A stretch of DNA of 56,953 nt from Ignavibacteria bacterium (GTDB lineage: Bacteria; Bacteroidota; Ignavibacteria; Tepidaquicellales; Tepidaquicellaceae). Made by a program: the position numbers and the translations under genes. The notes beneath the pieces are model-generated. The model was given only the letters and a program-made list of their open reading frames with translations. It searched no databases and was not told where the DNA came from. Positions within the stretch are counted from its first letter, which is position 1; every line of letters starts with the position of its first letter. The stretch lies in assembly GCA_019187405.1 (NCBI GenBank), contig JABAQZ010000024.1:1-56953 (forward strand). The letters run 5' to 3'. Below, piece after piece: positions 41,596 through 54,764 of this stretch.

Positions 41596-43328
41596 AAACA
41601 ATTTTACTTTTAGTAATCTCGGTAATAATATTTGCGGGTTTTATGACGGCGGGAAACCGTTTAAACGGTTTTTCCCACCTTGAGTCCGAAACAAATTTCA
41701 TTGTCCCAACAAGTCTTACATTTCCGTCGAAAACAAAATCCGTTCCGGAAACCATATCCGAATTAAAAACCAAAGCAAAGTTTACAAACATTGATTTATT
41801 CAAATTCAAAAATAAAATTAGCGGAGATGATGCATTTCGGTCATCGGCTGTCTCACCGATAAAACTTATTCTGCAAAATAAAACCAGATCACTTCTGCTT
41901 AAACAAAAACCGGAGAACATCACTTTCAGAATTCCGCTTTCGGATAAAAGTGTAATGGAACTCGAACTTACTAGAACATATCCTGTGAGTAGTGATTTTG
42001 AATTATTCGGTTTATCTGCCGAAGGTAAAGCCCCGCTGAATTATACCGAAGGTCTTCATTATCAAGGACTAATTAAAGGAGATGAAAACTCAATTGCTTC
42101 GGTAAGCATTTTCAATGAATTTGTAATGGGCATAATTTCTGATGAAAACGGAAATTATAATCTCGGTTCAATAAAAGACAACAGCGGCAATTATACGAAT
42201 GAATATGTTTTCTTTAATGATGCGGAGATGTCAGTAATCAATAATTATAAATGTGCGCTTGATGATAATGAGGAAAAATTTATTCTGCCTCTGCAGGAAT
42301 CCGTAAAGGATGAAATGCAATCATACGGTGATAATCCGGCTGTTCTTCCTGTAAAAATATATTTCGAAGCTGATTTTCAGATGTATACCGATAATCAGAG
42401 TAATTCTCAGAATGTATATAATTTTATCACGGGGTTTTTTAATTCTGTAAAAACAATTTATCAGAATGAAGGCATAACGATAAGTTTATACTCAGTCGGA
42501 GTTTGGACACAGGCAGATCCTTACAGAACTCTTAACGATTCATATTTAGTATTGAAAAAATTCGGCGGCTTCACTAAAGATAATTTTCAGGGAAACCTGT
42601 CACATCTGCTTTCCACAAGAAATGCCGGAATGGGCGGCATTGCATGGATCAGAGTATTATGTTCGACATTTAATCCAAACGACTCTTCGGGAAGATATGC
42701 ATTCAGCAACATTGACAACAATTATGTAAACTATCCCACATTTTCATGGACAGTACAGGTTGTAACACATGAAATGGGACATAATCTCGGTTCTCGTCAT
42801 ACACATGCATGTAACTGGCCTGTTAACGGTATCATTCAGTCAATAGATTCCTGTTACAATGCAGAGGGTAACTGCTTTACAACTTTAAGACCGAGAGTAG
42901 GAACCATTATGAGTTACTGTCATCTCTGGACAACCCAGCAGGGCGGCGGTATAAATCTTGCTTCAGGTTTTGGTCAGCTTCCCGGAGACACAATCAGATT
43001 AAGATATATTCAAGCGCCTTGCTTGAGAGGAGAATTAAATTCATCAGAAGCTCCATACACATTTGATTTGTCGCAGAATTTCCCGAATCCGTTTAATCCC
43101 TCAACAGTGATCCGGTTTTCTGTTCCGCATGAATCAATCGTCAGCATAAAGGTATTTGACGTCACCGGTAAAACAGTTGCCGTACTGGTAAACAACCGGA
43201 AATATTCACAGGGCTATTTTGATGTTACTTTTAATTCAGCAGAATTTAACTTAACAAGCGGAATATATTTTTATAAACTTGAGACAGCCGATTTTAAGGA
43301 AGTTAAGAGAATGGTCCTTATAAAATAA
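41592..43328 (+). CDS. Secreted reprolysin-like (M12B-type) metalloprotease with T9SS sorting domain
   Basis: 578 aa. The signal peptide (residues 1-20) is directly followed by GNRLNGFS, encoded by a palindromic repeat at 41654-41671. A ~230-residue prodomain-like region comes next. The catalytic motif is HEMGHNLGSRH (His393, Glu394, His397, His403), with the Met-turn GTIMSYCH. The final ~85 residues are a type A sorting domain beginning NFPNPFNPSTVIRFSVP, nearly identical in DNA to that of the module proteins downstream. It is secreted and probably cleaves proteins or peptides outside the cell. A terminator follows. Confidence 0.92.
   Translation: MKTILLLVISVIIFAGFMTAGNRLNGFSHLESETNFIVPTSLTFPSKTKSVPETISELKTKAKFTNIDLFKFKNKISGDDAFRSSAVSPIKLILQNKTRSLLLKQKPENITFRIPLSDKSVMELELTRTYPVSSDFELFGLSAEGKAPLNYTEGLHYQGLIKGDENSIASVSIFNEFVMGIISDENGNYNLGSIKDNSGNYTNEYVFFNDAEMSVINNYKCALDDNEEKFILPLQESVKDEMQSYGDNPAVLPVKIYFEADFQMYTDNQSNSQNVYNFITGFFNSVKTIYQNEGITISLYSVGVWTQADPYRTLNDSYLVLKKFGGFTKDNFQGNLSHLLSTRNAGMGGIAWIRVLCSTFNPNDSSGRYAFSNIDNNYVNYPTFSWTVQVVTHEMGHNLGSRHTHACNWPVNGIIQSIDSCYNAEGNCFTTLRPRVGTIMSYCHLWTTQQGGGINLASGFGQLPGDTIRLRYIQAPCLRGELNSSEAPYTFDLSQNFPNPFNPSTVIRFSVPHESIVSIKVFDVTGKTVAVLVNNRKYSQGYFDVTFNSAEFNLTSGIYFYKLETADFKEVKRMVLIK
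41654..41671. repeat. 18-bp palindrome inside the metalloprotease gene
   Basis: AAACCGTTTAAACGGTTT occurs here, identical to the two copies at 2101-2118 and 2166-2183. It is extended by GGG before and, after two more T, CCC. It is in frame and encodes residues 21-27 just after the signal peptide. Confidence 0.85.
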
Positions 43329-44999: not shown

Positions 45000-47900
45000 A
45001 TGAAAAAGATAATTTTAATATTTTTATTTATAATTACTACACTAAATATTTGCAATTCTCAGCCATTAATACAGTTTGCAGAAACCCTATTCAAAAATAA
45101 TACAAGCCACGAGATTTATATAAAGCTGTATCCTGCATCAGCAGTGTTTAGCGGGTTTTACAGTCCTCCTAATGAAAATTTTAGAAAGTATTCCTTAAAG
45201 AGAAGTAATCCAAATCAGTAACCCTTTTGGCAAGCTGGTCCTGATGGTGATAAATATATAACCGGCGGCACAAAATTAATCATGCCAAATGATTATGCCG
45301 TTATAGATTTCGACGATGGTCTTTATTACAGCATAGATTCTACAAGTGACAAGGTAATCGGAGGAATCAGTTACGGACTATGGAAATTCGAAATATTTAA
45401 TTCTGAAAACGGAATACCGGATACCGATACGCTTGAATATTTTTATCTTGATGAAAGAGATATGAATCATGGTGTAATATCAGGATTTTCACAGGTTGAT
45501 TTGTTTTTAACCTTGCTTCGAAGACAAAATGCTTCAGATGACAGCTTGGTTTTTAATTTTGTTTCAGGAGATACTGTTAATATTTATGATTACAGAATAG
45601 AAAATAAAACCATTAAATCATGGCATAAAGTAGGGATTTATTCCCCAATATACGGTCAAGATCCTGTCACTCCAGGCAGTCCGAATAAAGGTCTGTTCAA
45701 TTCACATCCCGATTTTACTGTTTATCCGATTTATTCAACCGAATACGGGGCAATAAAGCATGAAAATGCAGGAAGCATTAATCTGAATCTTAATATAGAT
45801 CATGATATTACTACGAGAGATACTTTACTGGAAAGTATTACAAACATCAGGATCGAAAGTAAGACATTGTTCAAAATAAACGACGGAAAAATCTTTCACA
45901 TGATTACTCCGTCTTATCCTTCGGGTGGTTATACTAATCTGATTATAGGAGAAGATTCTGCCAAGCTTCAACTTAGACCTAATTCGCAAATCATTGCAGA
46001 TCCTCCAAACAGAATTACACTCAAAAACGGCGGCTTTCTGCTGAAGAATCCCGGTTCAAGAATAACCATTAATCCAGGTGCTTATCTGTGTAACGAAGGC
46101 GGCTCGATCAGAGGAAGCGGTATTATTTATTATACCGGAGGCATTCATCAATCCATGTGCAATCAGCTGACTGACTATCTCCTTCAGGACAGCGTAAAAT
46201 TCATTCTCGATTCAAATGCAATTCTTCCGATTCCGAATAATACAACTTTGCATTTAAAAGGAAATACAACTTCACTTATCATGAAACCCGGATCAAAACT
46301 TCTCTTTGGTGAAAATTCGGGGATTGTATGTGATAGCGGCGGAAAAGTTATCGCAAACAATGCGACATTCGCTTCTATTGACTCAACGAAGAAATGGAAC
46401 GGGATTTCTCTTAGCGATTTATCTCAAGACACTATAAAGAACTGTATAATTAAAAATGCAATGTATGGAATTTCCATTTCGGATAAATATGATGCAGAAG
46501 ATACCGGCATAGATTATTCTGCTGAAATCTCCGGATGCACATTTGTTAATCAGACTAATTATGTACTCAACAGCGCAGTCTATATTGCCGGAAGCAATAA
46601 TGTGCTTATCATGAATAATTCCGTTTCATCGTCTGTTCTCGAAAAAGGATACACTCACGGCATTTATGCAGAGTATTGTCCGGAAGGTGTATTTAACTTA
46701 ATCGGCAATGATATCAGCGGAGCAGGAAACGGAATGACGCTCATCGGATGCTCTCCATTTGCAGCGCAGAATATTCTAACTGGGAATGAATACTCCGAAT
46801 GCGGGATGTTTCTCGATAATTCAAACGGAACATTCGAATATAATGAAATCAGCGATTTCTATTGTTCGTATTTTTCCTATTATTCTTCTCCTGATTTGCT
46901 GAAAAATGTTTTCGATAATTATCACGACGATAACCTGTGGCTTTCTTCGTCATCTGTTCCCGTAATGCATCCGCTTATAAACGCAGGATCAGTTTACTGG
47001 TATGCAGGCGATAATACGATTAATGGATCTCCATCTAATGCTTGCCTCGCCTATCTTTAAAGGCGGGCGGGAATAATCTTCGAAGAAGATGCATATCCGA
47101 TGTTGAATTACGGATACAATAAGTTTATGATGACAAATAACGATTATTATATCAGCGGAACAAATCCTTCGGGAGGAAACAGGGAATTTTATGTATTGCA
47201 GAACTACTGGGGAGGAACACCTGATTCGAATAAGTTTAATGTTGCTAATGCAGATGTGATTTATATTCCTTATGACAACAATTCATCTTCTGCAAGAGAA
47301 ACAAACTCTGACGATAAGTTTGACATCGGATTCGGACTTTATGATACGGTATTCTATTACGAGCCGGATAATCCGAATTCTGCTCAGGATCTTTACCTTG
47401 AAGCATATCAGAAAGAATATGCGGGAGAATATTCACAAGCGATTGATATTTACAAAGAGATAGTCGAAGAATACAAAGACAGTTCATATACATCTTCCTG
47501 CATGTCGAGAATATTCAGCTGCTTTGAAAAGAATAACTCAGCCCAAAGCGATTACAGTTCATTAGAAAATTATTACTGCAATATTTCAAACGACACATCA
47601 TATACAGAAATACAAAGAAACATCGCCGAAGAGTTTATGATAAAGTCGAAAGTAAAGCAAAACAATATTGAAGAAGCAATCAGCGATTACAATGCAATAT
47701 ACACACAGAACATAAGCACTCCGAAAGGAATACATGCACTGATAAACAAAGAAATACTTTCTGCCGGAGCAGGCGATAATATGTTAACCGGCTCGGTTTT
47801 TGAAAACATTGAATTAAGTCAGAATGCAATAAACACAATATTAAGCAAATTAGTCCGAAAGGATAAAAACATCTTCAGGGATTTAAGCATGAAACCAAAT

Positions 47901-48170
47901 GGTTATTCATTATCACAGAATTTCCCGAATCCGTTTAATCCGTCAACTGTAATCCGGTTTGCTTTACCGCATGAATCAATCGTCAGTATAAAAGTATTTG
48001 ATGTTACCGGTAAAACAGTTGCCGTACTGGTAAGCAACCGGAAATATTCACAAGGCTATTTTGATGTTACCTTTAATTCAGCTGGATATAATTTAACAAG
48101 CGGAATATATTTTTATAAGCTTGAGACTTCTGAATTTAAGGAAGTTAAAAGAATGGTTCTTATCAAATAG
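45000..48170 (+). pseudogene. Module A gene 2: secreted beta-helix protein, interrupted by two in-frame stops
   Basis: One continuous frame of 1057 codons from the ATG at 45000 (signal peptide MKKIILIFLFIITT) to 48170. It is broken by TAA at 45219-45221 and TAA at 47058-47060 without any frameshift. Compared with the intact paralogue at 51540-54764, the second stop lies inside a 30-nt hairpin-rich sequence (47037-47066) that replaces one codon. The domains read through are a diverged N-terminal part, a beta-helix with ISGCTFVNQTNYVLNS, a TPR-like helical segment (EYAGEYSQAIDIYKE) and a sorting domain (NFPNPFNPSTVIRFALP). It is most likely a pseudogene; readthrough is possible but unproven. 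Confidence 0.8.
47037..47066. repeat. 30-nt hairpin-rich insertion in module A gene 2
   Basis: Relative to the intact paralogue, 30 nt replace one codon (net 27 nt, frame kept). The sequence has CGCCT / AGGCG pairing around ATCTTTAA and a GC-rich GGCGGG end. It looks like a short palindromic repeat insertion and brings in the stop TAA at 47058. Confidence 0.6.
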
Positions 48171-48230
48171 TGACATTTGTCCCCTTAAAAAGAGTTAAAT
48201 TAGTCATACAAACTCAAACAGGAGGGGAAA

Positions 48231-49094
48231 GTGGAAAAAGGCAATATCAAAAGCGAAGAGCGTCAAAGGCACAAATCATCTGAGGGAGAGTTCATATTTG
48301 AATTAAGAAATAACTATGAACTCTCACCAAGGGTGAGTGAATCGATACTTGAATCAGCAAAGAGTTTCTTGATCCGGGACCATGCTCTTAAGGAAGGAGA
48401 AATAGAAGTATCAGTAATTTGTATTGAGGAGCTCAGCGGAAGGATGATTGAAAGCCTGAAGAAAGTTCGAGTTCGTTTAACAATAGATAGAGGTCTTGAA
48501 GACATTGAAGTGTTGAAAAAAACGGGAAGAGTGATCTTGCGCCGGGTCCGGGTTCAACGAATAACACAAGAAGCATTAGAGCAGAAAGGAGTCTTAAGTC
48601 AGGAAGATATCGGCAGATATTTGAATTGTGATGTACGGACAGTGAAGCGAGATATCCGAGAGATAAAGGAATCAGGAATTGAGGTAATAACCCGTGGAGT
48701 ACTTCGTAACATAGGTAGAGGTCAGACACATAAAACAAAGATAGTAGGTTTATATCTGGAAGGAAAAACATTCAGTGATATAAGATTAAAGACCCATCAT
48801 AGTTACGGAGCGATCAAAAGATACTTACAGGATTTTCAGAAGGTACTGATGAGTGTTCACAACGGAATAAGGGATATATTATCAATAAGTTTTGGAACCG
48901 GTCTAAGCGAAAGGTTGGTCAATGAATATATTGAATTGATTAGCCACAGTAGAAAAGATCGGCAGAAAAATGCAATGATGAAGGATATGATCAGACAGTG
49001 GAACAGAGCAGCAACGAGGATAAAAAAAAAGGAAGCAGCTGGAAACAGCGATTACATGCGGATTCTGGCTCCTATGACAGGAGGTATGAGATGA
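48231..49094 (+). CDS. DUF1670-like helix-turn-helix protein 1 of the element
   Basis: 287 aa, GTG start with a strong AGGAGG five bases upstream. Residues ~1-110 form an N-terminal domain (FIFELRNNYELSPRVSESIL, then RVRLTIDRGLEDIEVLKK). Then come three helix-turn-helix-like units: LSQEDIGRYLNCDVRTVKRD (~122-141), GKTFSDIRLKTHHSYGAIKR (~178-197) and a third around GLSERLVNEYIELI. The THKTKIVGLYLEG and TGLSERLVNEY patterns match DUF1670 (PF07900) as I remember it. No DDE, HUH, Ser or Tyr recombinase motif is visible. The stop overlaps the start of the second gene. Confidence 0.78.
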   Translation: MEKGNIKSEERQRHKSSEGEFIFELRNNYELSPRVSESILESAKSFLIRDHALKEGEIEVSVICIEELSGRMIESLKKVRVRLTIDRGLEDIEVLKKTGRVILRRVRVQRITQEALEQKGVLSQEDIGRYLNCDVRTVKRDIREIKESGIEVITRGVLRNIGRGQTHKTKIVGLYLEGKTFSDIRLKTHHSYGAIKRYLQDFQKVLMSVHNGIRDILSISFGTGLSERLVNEYIELISHSRKDRQKNAMMKDMIRQWNRAATRIKKKEAAGNSDYMRILAPMTGGMR

Positions 49095-49891
49095 GTTTAA
49101 ATCCAATAAGAGACAGATTTGAGAGTTTGAAGAAAAGGAATTTCCGTAGTTCATTAGTTCATTTGCTTGAGAACGATTACAAATTATTGGGTTCCAGAAA
49201 GATAATAGAATTACTATCGGAGGACATAGATGACCTTCACAATGAGTATTATCCACAGAGGGACCGAGTTGGCAATGGAGAGATAGTTTTTAGAACAACG
49301 AAAGATGATGGTCAACGCCAAAGCTATGGTAAACGAACAGAAGATTACGCAAGCACAACGGTAATCCTGCCGTTAGTAACGAATGAAGATATTGAGCGAA
49401 GAATATTTTATAAAAAGGGAGACAGAAATAGTAACTATAAGCATAGAGAAGCTCGTGACTTAGAGACCATGGTAAGATTACTCAAAAGCGCTAAGCAACA
49501 GGGTGGATTATTAAGTGGAGCAGAGTTGAGTATGCTGATGAACAGGACTTTAGGAACGATAGGAAAATATTTGAAGGCATATCAGGAAAAGACCGGAGAG
49601 ATACTTCCGCTGAAAGGATATGTGTTAGATCAAGGGAGTTTGCCGACGCACAAAGGAATAATAATCAGTTTATATGAGAATGGAGTAAGTCCGGCAGATA
49701 TAGTACTAAAGACTTCACATAGTCAGGATGCGGTAGACAGATATATAAAACATTATGAACAGGTAAAAAAACTTCTCAAAAAGGGATTAGATGAAAAAGC
49801 AATAGTATCAATTACCGGAAGAAGTTTGAATGTTATAAAGCAATACATTAAATTGTTTAATAATTTTAACAAGAAAAAAATCAAAAAATAG
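49091..49891 (+). CDS. DUF1670-like helix-turn-helix protein 2 of the element
   Basis: 266 aa from the ATG at 49091, which overlaps the upstream stop (ATGA) and has AGGAGG seven bases before it. An upstream GTG in frame would add 31 residues overlapping gene 1 and was not used. The N-terminal domain (residues 1-120, with SLVHLLENDYKLLGSRKI and an IFYKKGDRNS segment) differs from gene 1. The C-terminal half has the same three-unit order: LLSGAELSMLMNRTLGTIGK (~140-159), GVSPADIVLKTSHSQDAVDR (~198-217) and a third near SITGRSLNVIKQYIKLF. The two proteins are paralogues and probably act together. Confidence 0.76.
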   Translation: MSLNPIRDRFESLKKRNFRSSLVHLLENDYKLLGSRKIIELLSEDIDDLHNEYYPQRDRVGNGEIVFRTTKDDGQRQSYGKRTEDYASTTVILPLVTNEDIERRIFYKKGDRNSNYKHREARDLETMVRLLKSAKQQGGLLSGAELSMLMNRTLGTIGKYLKAYQEKTGEILPLKGYVLDQGSLPTHKGIIISLYENGVSPADIVLKTSHSQDAVDRYIKHYEQVKKLLKKGLDEKAIVSITGRSLNVIKQYIKLFNNFNKKKIKK

Positions 49892-49915
49892 TCAGGGGAC
49901 AAATGTCCCTATTGT

Positions 49916-50095
49916 AAATAAGATGAGATAGTATCAATTTCGAAAAATCCCGTCGGGAGTTTTTCCGGCGGGATTTTTTTATGCAATATTTATAAATCCG
50001 GATTATGATGCAATACCGGGAAAAATTAATGAATTCATTCTTCTCAAATAACATATTAACTTTGTATAAATTTGATTAATGAAAATTATTATCAA
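49916..50095 (+). repeat. Module leader B (second copy of three)
   Basis: Nearly identical to 43329-43502, with the terminator at 49943-49980 and the same TAACTTTG and TAAATTTG pair. It resumes the host sequence right after the inserted element. Confidence 0.7.
49943..49980 (+). terminator. Terminator of leader B
   Basis: Stem TCCCGTCGG / CCGGCGGGA (with one G-T pair), followed by seven T. In copy A it would have ended the beta-helix transcript before the element inserted; now it follows the element. Confidence 0.85.
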
Positions 50096-51539: not shown

Positions 51540-54500
51540 ATGATGAAAAATATAGTATTAATAATAATTTTGCTTGTTTTTTTTCTCAATCCATTTGCGA
51601 AAGGAACAGATCCTGCAGTTGAATTTTATTTTATTAATAAAATAGAAAATCTAGATCTATACGTAAGGTTTTATCCCATTGGATCAGTATTTAATGGTGA
51701 TGACCATTTTTATCTTCCTACTTTTTATAGTCTAATAGCAAGAGGAATTGATCCTATAAATCCTAATACCGGGTTTCCAAGAAAGGGATCAGAAGTAAAA
51801 CTAAAGTATATCATTGGATTAGATGGATATGCATTAAGTACTTTTAATCATCCTGATTCTGATTCACTTTATTTTCGGGTTGAACCAGGTACTGAGATTA
51901 GTTACAATAAATGGTTAACTTTGGGACATGATGCAACTGCGAATCCAACACAACAAGATGCACTTTTGGGGTATGGAAATTATATGTTTGAAATTTATAT
52001 TAATACAAATCTAGATAGTCCATTTGTTAAGATCTTACAATTACCAATTGATTGGCTTGATTTTAACTATCCTTATTCAGATTCTTCTGGAGGCTCGATA
52101 GATTTGAAATTGAGAATTTATTCATTAGATCCACTAAATATTACTTTTCAGTGGTTGAATCCTGTGGGTGATGAAATTTCGTTATTCGGGACAAATAGTC
52201 CTCCATATAACGGGGGCATTCAAGTCTACAAACAATATCATAGATTCGATACAAATCTTGGTGAATGGATCGGATACAATCTTAACAATGAATATCCCCC
52301 TTCATTAGGAAATTCTGTTTCAGATATAAATTTCTTAACTTACCCCTTGGACGGAAGAAATCTTCCAAGCCCTTATAACATTCCCCAGCATCCTGATGCC
52401 GGATTAATTCGAGCAAATGTTTCAATTGATACTAATGTAAATACTCCAACAACTTTACTTCAAAATCCAACAAACATAACTATATCAAATAAAGCTATCG
52501 TAAAAGTAGAGTCAGCTGATACTTTAAATTTACATACTCCGACTTCACCGTCGAATAGTCACGTAAATTTAATCGTGACTGATTCTTCTTTCTTAGCTGT
52601 CAGACCTACTGCTAAAATTATTGTTCATTCACCAAACAGAATAACTTTAAAAAATACAGGCACAATTATAATCAATACAGGAGGAGAAATTAGAATTAAA
52701 CCAGGAGCATTGTTTTGCAATGAAGGAGGCAAGTTATTCGGAAGAGTAACTTTTGAAAATGGATTTCATCAGCCTCTCTGCTCCCAGCTCGCAGACTTTC
52801 TTCTCAGAGACAGCTCGAAATTCATTCTCGATTCAAACGCCACGCTGCCGATTCCGGATAACACAACCCTGCATCTTCAAGGAATTGAGTCAGCATTAAT
52901 TTTAAATCCCGGCTCGAAACTCCTCTTCGGCGAAAACTCGGGAATTATATGCGACAGCGGAGGAAAGCTCATAGCGAATAATGCGACATTCGCTTCTATT
53001 GATTCTACGAAGAAATGGAACGGAATTTCTTTGAGCGGATTGTCACAGGATACTATAAAGAATTGTGTCGTTAAGAATGCAATGTATGGAATTTCCATTT
53101 CGGATAAATATGATGCAGAAGATACCGGCATTGATTATTCTGCTGAAATCTCCGGATGCACATTTATCAATCAGACTAATTATGTACTCAACAGCGCAGT
53201 CTATATCGCAGGAAGCAATAACATACTGATTATGAATAATTCCATTTCATCTACAATTCTTGAAAAAGGATTTACACACGGCATCTATGCGGAATACTGT
53301 CCCGAAGGAGCTTTCAATATTATCGATAATAATATCAGCAACGCCGGATTCGGTATGACTTTGATAGGATGTTCACCTTTTGTTGCGCAGAATACAATTA
53401 CAGGAAATGAATTTTCAGATTGCGGAATGTTTCTCGATAATTCAAACGGAACATTCGAATATAATGTAATCAGTGATTTTTATTATTCATACTTTTCATA
53501 TTATTCCTCTCCTGATTTGCTGAAAAATATATTCGATAATTATTATGACGATAATATATGGCTTTCGAGTTCTTCTGTTCCGGTAATGCATCCGCTTATA
53601 AACGCAGGATCAGTTTACTGGTATGCAGGAGATAATACGATTAAAGGTTCACCTTCAGAGGCGGGAATAATCTTCGAAGAAGATGCATATCCGATGTTGA
53701 ATTACGGATACAATAAGTTTATGATGACAAATAACGATTATTATATCAGCGGAACAAATCCTTCGGGAGGAAACAGGGAATTTTATGTATTGCAGAACTA
53801 CTGGGGAGGAACACCTGATTCGAATAAGTTTAATGTTGCTAATGCAGATGTGATTTATATTCCTTATGACAACAATTCATCTTCTGCAAGAGAAACAAAC
53901 TCTGACGATAAGTTTGACATCGGATTCGGAATATATGATACGGTGTTCTATTACGAGCCGGATAATCCGAATTCAGCACAGGACCTTTATCTTGAAGCAT
54001 ATCAGAAAGAATATGCGGGAGAATATTCACAAGCGATTGATATTTACAAAGAGATAGTCGAAGAATACAAAGACAGTTCATATACATCTTCCTGCATGTC
54101 GAGAATATTCAGCTGCTTTGAAAAGAAAAACTCAGCCCAAAGCGATTACAGTTCATTAGAAAATTATTACAGCAATATTTCAAGCGACACCAGTTACACA
54201 GAAATACAAAGAAACATTGCCGAAGAGTTTATGATAAAGTCGAAAGTAAAGCAAAACAACATCGAAGAAGCAATCAGCGATTACAATGGGATATACAACC
54301 AAAACATTAACACACCAAAAGGAACACATGCACTGATAAACAAAGAAATACTTTCTGCCGGAGCAGGCGATAATATGTTAAACAACTCAGCATTTGAAAA
54401 AATAGAATTAAAGCTGAATGCATTGAATCATTTATTTGCAAATATCATTAAGAAGGAAAAGAATATTTTTTCAGATATGAAAATTAAACAGCAAGGTTAT

Positions 54501-54764
54501 TCATTGTCGCAGAATTTCCCGAATCCGTTTAATCCCTCAACAGTGATCCGGTTTTCTGTTCCGCATGAATCAATCGTCAGCATAAAGGTATTTGACGTCA
54601 CCGGCAAAACAGTTGCCGTACTGGTAAACAACCGGAAATATTCACAGGGCTATTTTGATGTTACTTTTAATTCAGCAGAATTTAACTTAACCAGCGGGAT
54701 ATATTTTTATAAACTTGAGGCAGCTGAGTTTAAGGAAGTTAAGAGAATGGTCCTTATAAAATAA
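51540..54764 (+). CDS. Module B gene 2: secreted beta-helix and TPR-like protein with sorting domain
   Basis: 1074 aa, intact. Signal peptide (IVLIIILLVFFLNPFAKG). Residues ~20-300 form a diverged domain shared with module C gene 2 (KYIIGLDGYALS, PIDWLDFNYPY). Then a region of GGEIRIKPGALFCNEGG leads into a parallel beta-helix (ISGCTFINQTNYVLNS, then NSISSTILEKGFTHGIYAEYC), a TPR-like helical segment (AYQKEYAGEYSQAIDIYKE) and a sorting domain (NFPNPFNPSTVIRFSVP...KRMVLIK). Its C-terminal two-thirds match module A gene 2 closely at the DNA level, and the first third does not. It is probably a surface-attached protein; ligand unknown. Confidence 0.87.
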   Translation: MMKNIVLIIILLVFFLNPFAKGTDPAVEFYFINKIENLDLYVRFYPIGSVFNGDDHFYLPTFYSLIARGIDPINPNTGFPRKGSEVKLKYIIGLDGYALSTFNHPDSDSLYFRVEPGTEISYNKWLTLGHDATANPTQQDALLGYGNYMFEIYINTNLDSPFVKILQLPIDWLDFNYPYSDSSGGSIDLKLRIYSLDPLNITFQWLNPVGDEISLFGTNSPPYNGGIQVYKQYHRFDTNLGEWIGYNLNNEYPPSLGNSVSDINFLTYPLDGRNLPSPYNIPQHPDAGLIRANVSIDTNVNTPTTLLQNPTNITISNKAIVKVESADTLNLHTPTSPSNSHVNLIVTDSSFLAVRPTAKIIVHSPNRITLKNTGTIIINTGGEIRIKPGALFCNEGGKLFGRVTFENGFHQPLCSQLADFLLRDSSKFILDSNATLPIPDNTTLHLQGIESALILNPGSKLLFGENSGIICDSGGKLIANNATFASIDSTKKWNGISLSGLSQDTIKNCVVKNAMYGISISDKYDAEDTGIDYSAEISGCTFINQTNYVLNSAVYIAGSNNILIMNNSISSTILEKGFTHGIYAEYCPEGAFNIIDNNISNAGFGMTLIGCSPFVAQNTITGNEFSDCGMFLDNSNGTFEYNVISDFYYSYFSYYSSPDLLKNIFDNYYDDNIWLSSSSVPVMHPLINAGSVYWYAGDNTIKGSPSEAGIIFEEDAYPMLNYGYNKFMMTNNDYYISGTNPSGGNREFYVLQNYWGGTPDSNKFNVANADVIYIPYDNNSSSARETNSDDKFDIGFGIYDTVFYYEPDNPNSAQDLYLEAYQKEYAGEYSQAIDIYKEIVEEYKDSSYTSSCMSRIFSCFEKKNSAQSDYSSLENYYSNISSDTSYTEIQRNIAEEFMIKSKVKQNNIEEAISDYNGIYNQNINTPKGTHALINKEILSAGAGDNMLNNSAFEKIELKLNALNHLFANIIKKEKNIFSDMKIKQQGYSLSQNFPNPFNPSTVIRFSVPHESIVSIKVFDVTGKTVAVLVNNRKYSQGYFDVTFNSAEFNLTSGIYFYKLEAAEFKEVKRMVLIK

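Follow-up and report, generated by a model that had tools for sequence, protein, structure and literature searches.

Short autonomous elements with inverted ends, a short target duplication and relics in the genome are known from the IS630/Tc1-mariner group, which employs a DDE transposase and duplicates TA. IS110 and the bridge-RNA elements possess a recombinase with DEDD and Tnp_20 domains together with a structured non-coding RNA, and use a 2-bp core within a long asymmetric target. IS200/IS605 elements, which use an HUH (Y1) enzyme and make no duplication, and the RAYT/REP systems are characterized by foldable palindromic ends and by REP-like solo palindromes scattered in genomes. Genomic islands at tRNA 3' ends, moved by tyrosine integrases, insert at the 3' end of a gene and restore it. 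For DUF1670 (PF07900), to our knowledge, no function had been assigned before; our literature search, with ISfinder and subscription literature outside its range, found no mention of DUF1670 or PF07900.

The locus described here lies in a stretch of 56,953 nucleotides from an Ignavibacteria bacterium (the window). A preliminary description had proposed that two overlapping DUF1670-like genes enclosed by inverted repeats form a mobile element of a new type. The locus is short and carries inverted ends, and both multicopy relatives and empty sites were found. From sequence comparison it may be regarded as an insertion sequence in the broad sense, placed in no known family, with its movement presumably driven by its own genes.

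Structure of the locus and insertion junctions

Both DUF1670-like genes recognized earlier were found to encode full-length PF07900 proteins (E 4e-45 and 6e-48; 154 and 164 bits versus a curated cut-off of 25). They are the only two genes of the element: no other open frame of more than 128 aa was detected inside it, and only 64 and 24 bases are non-coding. P1 and P2 are also the sole DUF1670 matches in the source genome, and no second full unit was found there. The inverted repeat had been described as 19 bp with one mismatch; the single mismatch was confirmed, while the measured length is 20 nt with 19 matching (48166-48185 / 49894-49913). No further copies of this repeat were found at up to 3 mismatches elsewhere in the 3.78-Mb genome. 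The originally proposed extent of 48165-49920 contains the element but had to be narrowed to the boundaries given in Table 1. The target gene ends with a TIGR04183 sorting domain of type A for the type IX secretion system (T9SS; E 6e-10), and its last codon is completed by the element: the ATAG of the A-end contributes the A that ends the Lys codon, followed by TAG as stop. As a separate observation, the host T9SS gene (45282-48170) contains at about 47042-47070 an extra stretch of approximately 28 bp with the inverted repeat CGCCT...AGGCG, which breaks the reading frame and is missing from the paralogue at 51540-54764.

Table 1. Features of the proposed mobile element and of its target sites in the window
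Feature	Position	Strand	Description	Basis
Whole mobile element	48167..49915	+	1749 bp, ATAGTGACATTTGTCCCC ... GGGGACAAATGTCCCTATTGT	Filled/empty comparison and 23 complete relatives
Left copy of 2-bp duplication (AA)	48165..48166		Bases 1-2 of the host gene's last codon	23 relatives
Right copy of 2-bp duplication (AA)	49916..49917			23 relatives
A-end, palindromic	48167..48184	+	ATAGTGACATTTGTCCCC	
B-end, palindromic inverted partner of A-end	49895..49915	+	GGGGACAAATGTCCCTATTGT, 3 bases longer outward	
Gene 1 (P1), DUF1670	48231..49094	+	287 aa; predicted HTH array with N-terminal alpha/beta domain	
Gene 2 (P2), DUF1670	49091..49891	+	266 aa; ATGA overlap with P1 stop	
Target gene, 3' open piece	47100..48170	+	T9SS type A sorting domain at C-terminus, end KRMVLIK-stop	
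Original last codon and stop of target gene (AAA TAA)	49916..49921	+	Now located past the B-end	
Empty site, paralogous T9SS gene (AAATAA)	43323..43328	+		
Empty site, paralogous T9SS gene (AAATAA)	54759..54764	+		

A sibling module had been named as an empty-site reference, and two such references do exist in the window, in modules that end at 43328 and 54764. Both show the same downstream leader as the filled site, without the unit. The sequence at the empty sites is CTTATAAAATAAGATGAG; at the filled site it is CTTATCAA / ATAGTGAC...CCTATTGT / AAATAAGATGAG, where slashes mark the limits of the element. Complete elements (n = 23) share this architecture and measure 1.7-2.1 kb. The two bases flanking the element are identical on both sides in all of them (AA, n = 20; CG, n = 3), and as AA and CG are the only cores seen, this duplication is indistinguishable from a required shared 2-bp core. 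The third flanking base differs between the sides in 5 of the 23 elements (A versus G, G, G, C and T). On the A-side it is always the A supplied by the element, and the originals differ in loci L029, L140 and L046 (AAG), L039 (AAC) and L228 (CGT). In 22 of 22 readable cases the target's own codon, with a stop in frame, was found beyond the far end. These alignments place the insertion point between bases 2 and 3 of the final codon, behind the AA of a Lys or the CG of an Arg codon. The missing third base comes from the element, whose first bases are ATAG, ATAA or ATGA; they restore the codon as AA+A (Lys) or CG+A (Arg) and also provide a stop.

The sequence AAATA on both sides, on which the preliminary description had relied, was confirmed, whereas the 5-bp duplication deduced from it was not, only AA (2 bp) being duplicated. 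The left AAATA(G) consists of AA plus the ATAG of the element and the right AAATAA is the target's own codon and stop, so AAATA represents 2 bp plus repair. The duplication is thus constant, as had been expected, at 2 bp instead of 5 bp. A duplication of 5 bp was rejected on account of the deviating third bases of the relatives and of genome G314, which has AAATA at 5 of 5 left ends and AAGTA at 3 of 5 right ends. The alternative of an element starting with AAATAG and no duplication was dropped because of the 3 elements which have CG instead of AA at both flanks.

Target choice

Ends were located by their own sequence, with the flank not used as a condition, which yielded 63 distinct A-end junctions. 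A strict [KRQ][KRM][MLF]xxx[KR]-stop tail, of the KKMxLxK/R-stop type, was matched by 50 of them, and several of the remaining 13 are one residue off. Junction information peaks at ATG, at the second codon positions and at AA. In genome G450 the same DNA motif is occupied by several copies where no T9SS-tail reading frame is present, so recognition operates on DNA and not on protein. The targeted DNA motif, as deduced from the junctions, comprises about 20 bp, AARAARATGNTNNTNNTNAA. T9SS-domain matches amounted to at least 150 in each of four genomes checked. Where unrelated insertion sites had been anticipated, the sites found were the 3' ends of T9SS sorting-domain genes, whose products are exported. 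This targeting is absent from the preliminary description, as is the observation that each end is itself a palindrome which varies by subfamily.

Relatives, copies and empty sites

DUF1670 matches were obtained in 10 of 296 genomes of the phylum and in 34 of 391 genomes of the class, a patchy distribution, and usually as a tandem pair. Among archaea, Methanosarcina acetivorans also gave a DUF1670 match. The nearest relatives in a contig search include Ignavibacteria, Bacteroidetes and Cloacimonadota, and none were found among viral contigs, plasmids and phages. A search for inverted ends beside DUF1670 genes, which had been proposed as a check, revealed the same kind of ends around pairs in many genomes. 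All complete loci consist of a DUF1670 pair between inverted ends, every end being palindromic. The group of the window has TGACAAATGTCCC and relatives as end palindromes; other subfamilies show GGACATTTGTCC, GGAAGATCTTCC and GAGGCCATATGACCTC, and a second, more distant group shows GTATCAAATGATAC or TCAAATGACC. The T9SS gene is contacted by the P1-side end in the group of the window and by the P2-side end in the second group; the polarity of the ends is therefore independent of gene orientation. A further DUF1670 group (L041, L042, L220 and L230) has GCCATATGGC-type ends. No T9SS gene end was seen adjoining the element at these four loci, and the flanks of L042 form an inverted repeat, ATTCTGCCCCT/AGGGGCAGAAT.

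Two other features of the relatives were observed. In the leader between A-end and P1 a CCTCAG...CTGAGG pairing is kept (L029, L027, L033 and relatives), with moderate covariation of the hairpin in the relatives; the window copy is without it. If formed in read-through transcripts, such a hairpin could hide the ribosome site; as the window copy lacks it, it is not included in the description of the element. In genome G568 (C1:826162-834245, L232) three similar DUF1670 C-terminal fragments, with one stop codon each, lie about 3.9 kb apart and adjoin T9SS genes, the segment apparently being tandemly repeated.

The expectation of multiple copies did not hold for the source genome with its single full copy, but it did for G314, in which many near-identical ends occur at different loci. 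Of 11 end matches in G314, 10 were read and represent 5 A-ends and 5 B-ends, located near contig ends as expected of an assembler meeting a repeat. The A-ends show no mismatch over 114-115 bp of the element side; four B-ends show at most 1 mismatch over 132-133 bp, and the fifth is readable for 20 bp. The reading frames of these element edges correspond to the beginning of P1 and the final part of P2. Full copies were not assembled end to end, and no DUF1670 match was scored in the G314 assembly because only the edges of the element are assembled. Besides the paralogous empty sites in the window, an orthologous one was found: in the sister species G447 one of the G314 sites is empty and reads ATGGTACTAATGAAATAACAAAGCG, and the filled counterpart in G314 reads ...GTACTGGTGAA / ATAGTGAC and ...CACTATAGT / AAATAGCG. 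For G422 no orthologous empty site was found in its genus. Decayed, truncated and internally deleted copies were also observed at T9SS gene ends. At L027 (5830-5860), L271 and L278, ends or scars of different subfamilies lie side by side at one T9SS stop, as if the site had been reused.

With ends common to many genomes, multicopy relatives, constant 2-bp flanks and empty sites, the earlier reading as a mobile element gained support. Mobility and targeting as such, leaving the mechanism aside, are well supported by these comparisons, and we regard them as very nearly certain.

Solo scars

A 23-bp solo scar, in which the outer halves of the A-end and of the B-end are joined and which has AA on each side, occupies 33 sites, spread over 18 of the 391 genomes, with 0 sites in the reversed control. 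The T9SS tail motif was matched directly by 29 of the 33 scars, and 32 of 33 have an in-frame stop after them. The source genome carries three tandem 23-bp scars with AA between them on contig C8 (72571-72647; L150, L272), behind a T9SS gene ending with RMILIK. As each end is a palindrome, both ends are also direct repeats. Recombination between the palindromic ends would delete the interior and leave the 23-bp scar; ordinary deletion between short repeats could also have produced it. The scars explain a class of palindromes at T9SS gene ends.

The DUF1670 proteins

An hhalign probability of 100% marks P1 and P2 as homologues. Their AlphaFold models (mean pLDDT 86 and 79, pTM 0.46 and 0.53) predict a helical N-terminal part that includes a two-stranded hairpin, followed by a winged helix and two more helix-turn-helix units. 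Beside these HTH modules the models show a small alpha/beta domain. As previously noted, no DDE, HUH, serine or tyrosine domain was recognized in either protein, and the IS110 domain was likewise absent from the matches. In a Pfam scan of 29+29 members meaningful matches were restricted to DUF1670 and helix-turn-helix families. DDE, HUH (Y1), DEDD and Tnp_20 domains gave no Pfam match in these 58 proteins, which is no proof of their absence. For serine resolvases, 3 of the 58 proteins showed weak HTH_7 (resolvase HTH) matches, and the catalytic domain gave no Pfam match in any of them. A spaced H...HS...Y pattern in DUF1670 resembles integrase box II without its arginine. Invariant residues include R104, R110, D91, H167, H190 and Y198 of P1 and R129, H187, H210 and Y218 of P2 (window numbering). 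A relation to tyrosine recombinases received no support from profile comparison: hhalign against 11 local integrases yielded probabilities of 0.4% and 1.1%, and there was no Pfam integrase match. Searching solved structures by sequence gave no convincing match, and Foldseek against PDB and viral models gave none at E <0.001. A second fold comparison (VIA) returned only HTH or winged-helix pieces with Z <7. When whole-protein models were compared, no structure match covered the N-terminal ~100 residues well.

Possible mechanism of movement

The full explanation which we favor, and consider quite probable, is an autonomous, site-specific, insertion-sequence-like element moved by P1 and P2. As these are the sole genes inside and both are kept, we infer that it is fairly likely DUF1670 itself which does the recombination. 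Co-translated and built as helix-turn-helix arrays, P1 and P2 would act together, bind the palindromic ends (one palindrome per subfamily) and the target, and perform a 2-bp-staggered cut-and-paste reaction or a site-specific recombination. The catalytic centre would be of an as yet unrecognised type, possibly within the conserved N-terminal ~100 residues. Recombination at the palindrome would create a junction with the perfect inner palindrome AGGGGACA..TGTCCCCT, and end-to-end joining would give ...CCTATTGT-AA-ATAGTGAC. Only tentatively, and with slightly more doubt than belief, we suggest that P1 and P2 form a new chemical class of recombinase unrelated to the DDE, HUH, tyrosine, serine and DEDD enzymes, with the T9SS codons as safe harbour and a self-repairing end.

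Alternatively, the element may be mobile while a recombinase encoded elsewhere cuts and joins, and the DUF1670 pair only binds the ends, picks the target or regulates. The exclusive match of DUF1670 to helix-turn-helix families and predicted folds with no recognisable nuclease domain agree with such an outside enzyme. So do genomes such as G610, whose eight 23-bp scars are of another type than the ends of the single DUF1670 element recognised there. However, the two DUF1670 genes are the only ones in every complete element, no co-occurring recombinase was seen inside or beside the elements, and no link to the element was found for the host tyrosine recombinases in six genomes checked, which makes this explanation unlikely. 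Even less can be said for a single-stranded hairpin route like that of IS200/IS605. Each end can fold (e.g. GGGAC-AAAT-GTCCC), the outer lengths of the ends differ and flank specificity is found on one side, as palindromic ends acting as hairpins would suggest; nevertheless, 2 bp recur on both sides, and where CG stands for AA it does so at both, which together with the missing HUH match renders this route very improbable.

Near the bottom of the scale stands RNA-guided recombination, although the 2-bp core and the long asymmetric target resemble IS110 (PMC11208160). No DEDD or Tnp_20 domain was matched, the non-coding bases are few, there was no Rfam match above gathering score, and the element's longest stretch identical to the target does not exceed what shuffled targets give. 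For the same lack of excess over shuffles, the idea that the element carries a guide for its target was rejected. Equally hard to believe is an immobile DUF1670 pair which is passed on vertically as an ordinary operon with a regulatory role and a link to T9SS genes. It would account for the constant adjacency to T9SS genes, but not for near-identical multicopy ends in one genome, codon repair, relics and scars, nor for a gene orientation relative to the ends which is opposite in the two main groups, and it is contradicted by the orthologous empty site.

Comparison with known mobile elements

DUF1670 is now given a mobile-element context. The element illustrates harm avoidance by a transposon, which takes sorting-signal codons common to many genes as its address and mends the final codon as it inserts. 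As the recombinase, DUF1670 would be a recombination enzyme of a class not yet described, encoded by two small genes and with a target of roughly 20 bp. Should DUF1670 be proven catalytic, the element would be of a categorically new kind, beyond an insertion-sequence-like variant.

With IS630/Tc1-mariner the DUF1670 element has in common its short autonomous form, inverted ends, short duplication and genomic relics, but AA (20/23) or CG (3/23) is found in place of TA. It differs from classical DDE insertion sequences by the missing DDE match and the ~20-bp target at T9SS gene ends. The 2-bp core and the long asymmetric target are shared with IS110 and bridge-RNA elements, whereas there is no room for a comparable RNA, and the ends are clear inverted palindromes. 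Foldable palindromic ends and scattered solo palindromes recall IS200/IS605 and RAYT/REP; in contrast to IS200/IS605, a 2-bp repeat, possibly a shared core, accompanies 23 of 23 elements, no HUH domain was matched, and insertion takes place inside a codon which is then rebuilt. Like the islands at tRNA 3' ends, the DUF1670 element inserts at the 3' end of a gene and restores it, but it does so without support for an integrase, with a length of about 2 kb or less, and with a large protein-gene family in each genome as its target.
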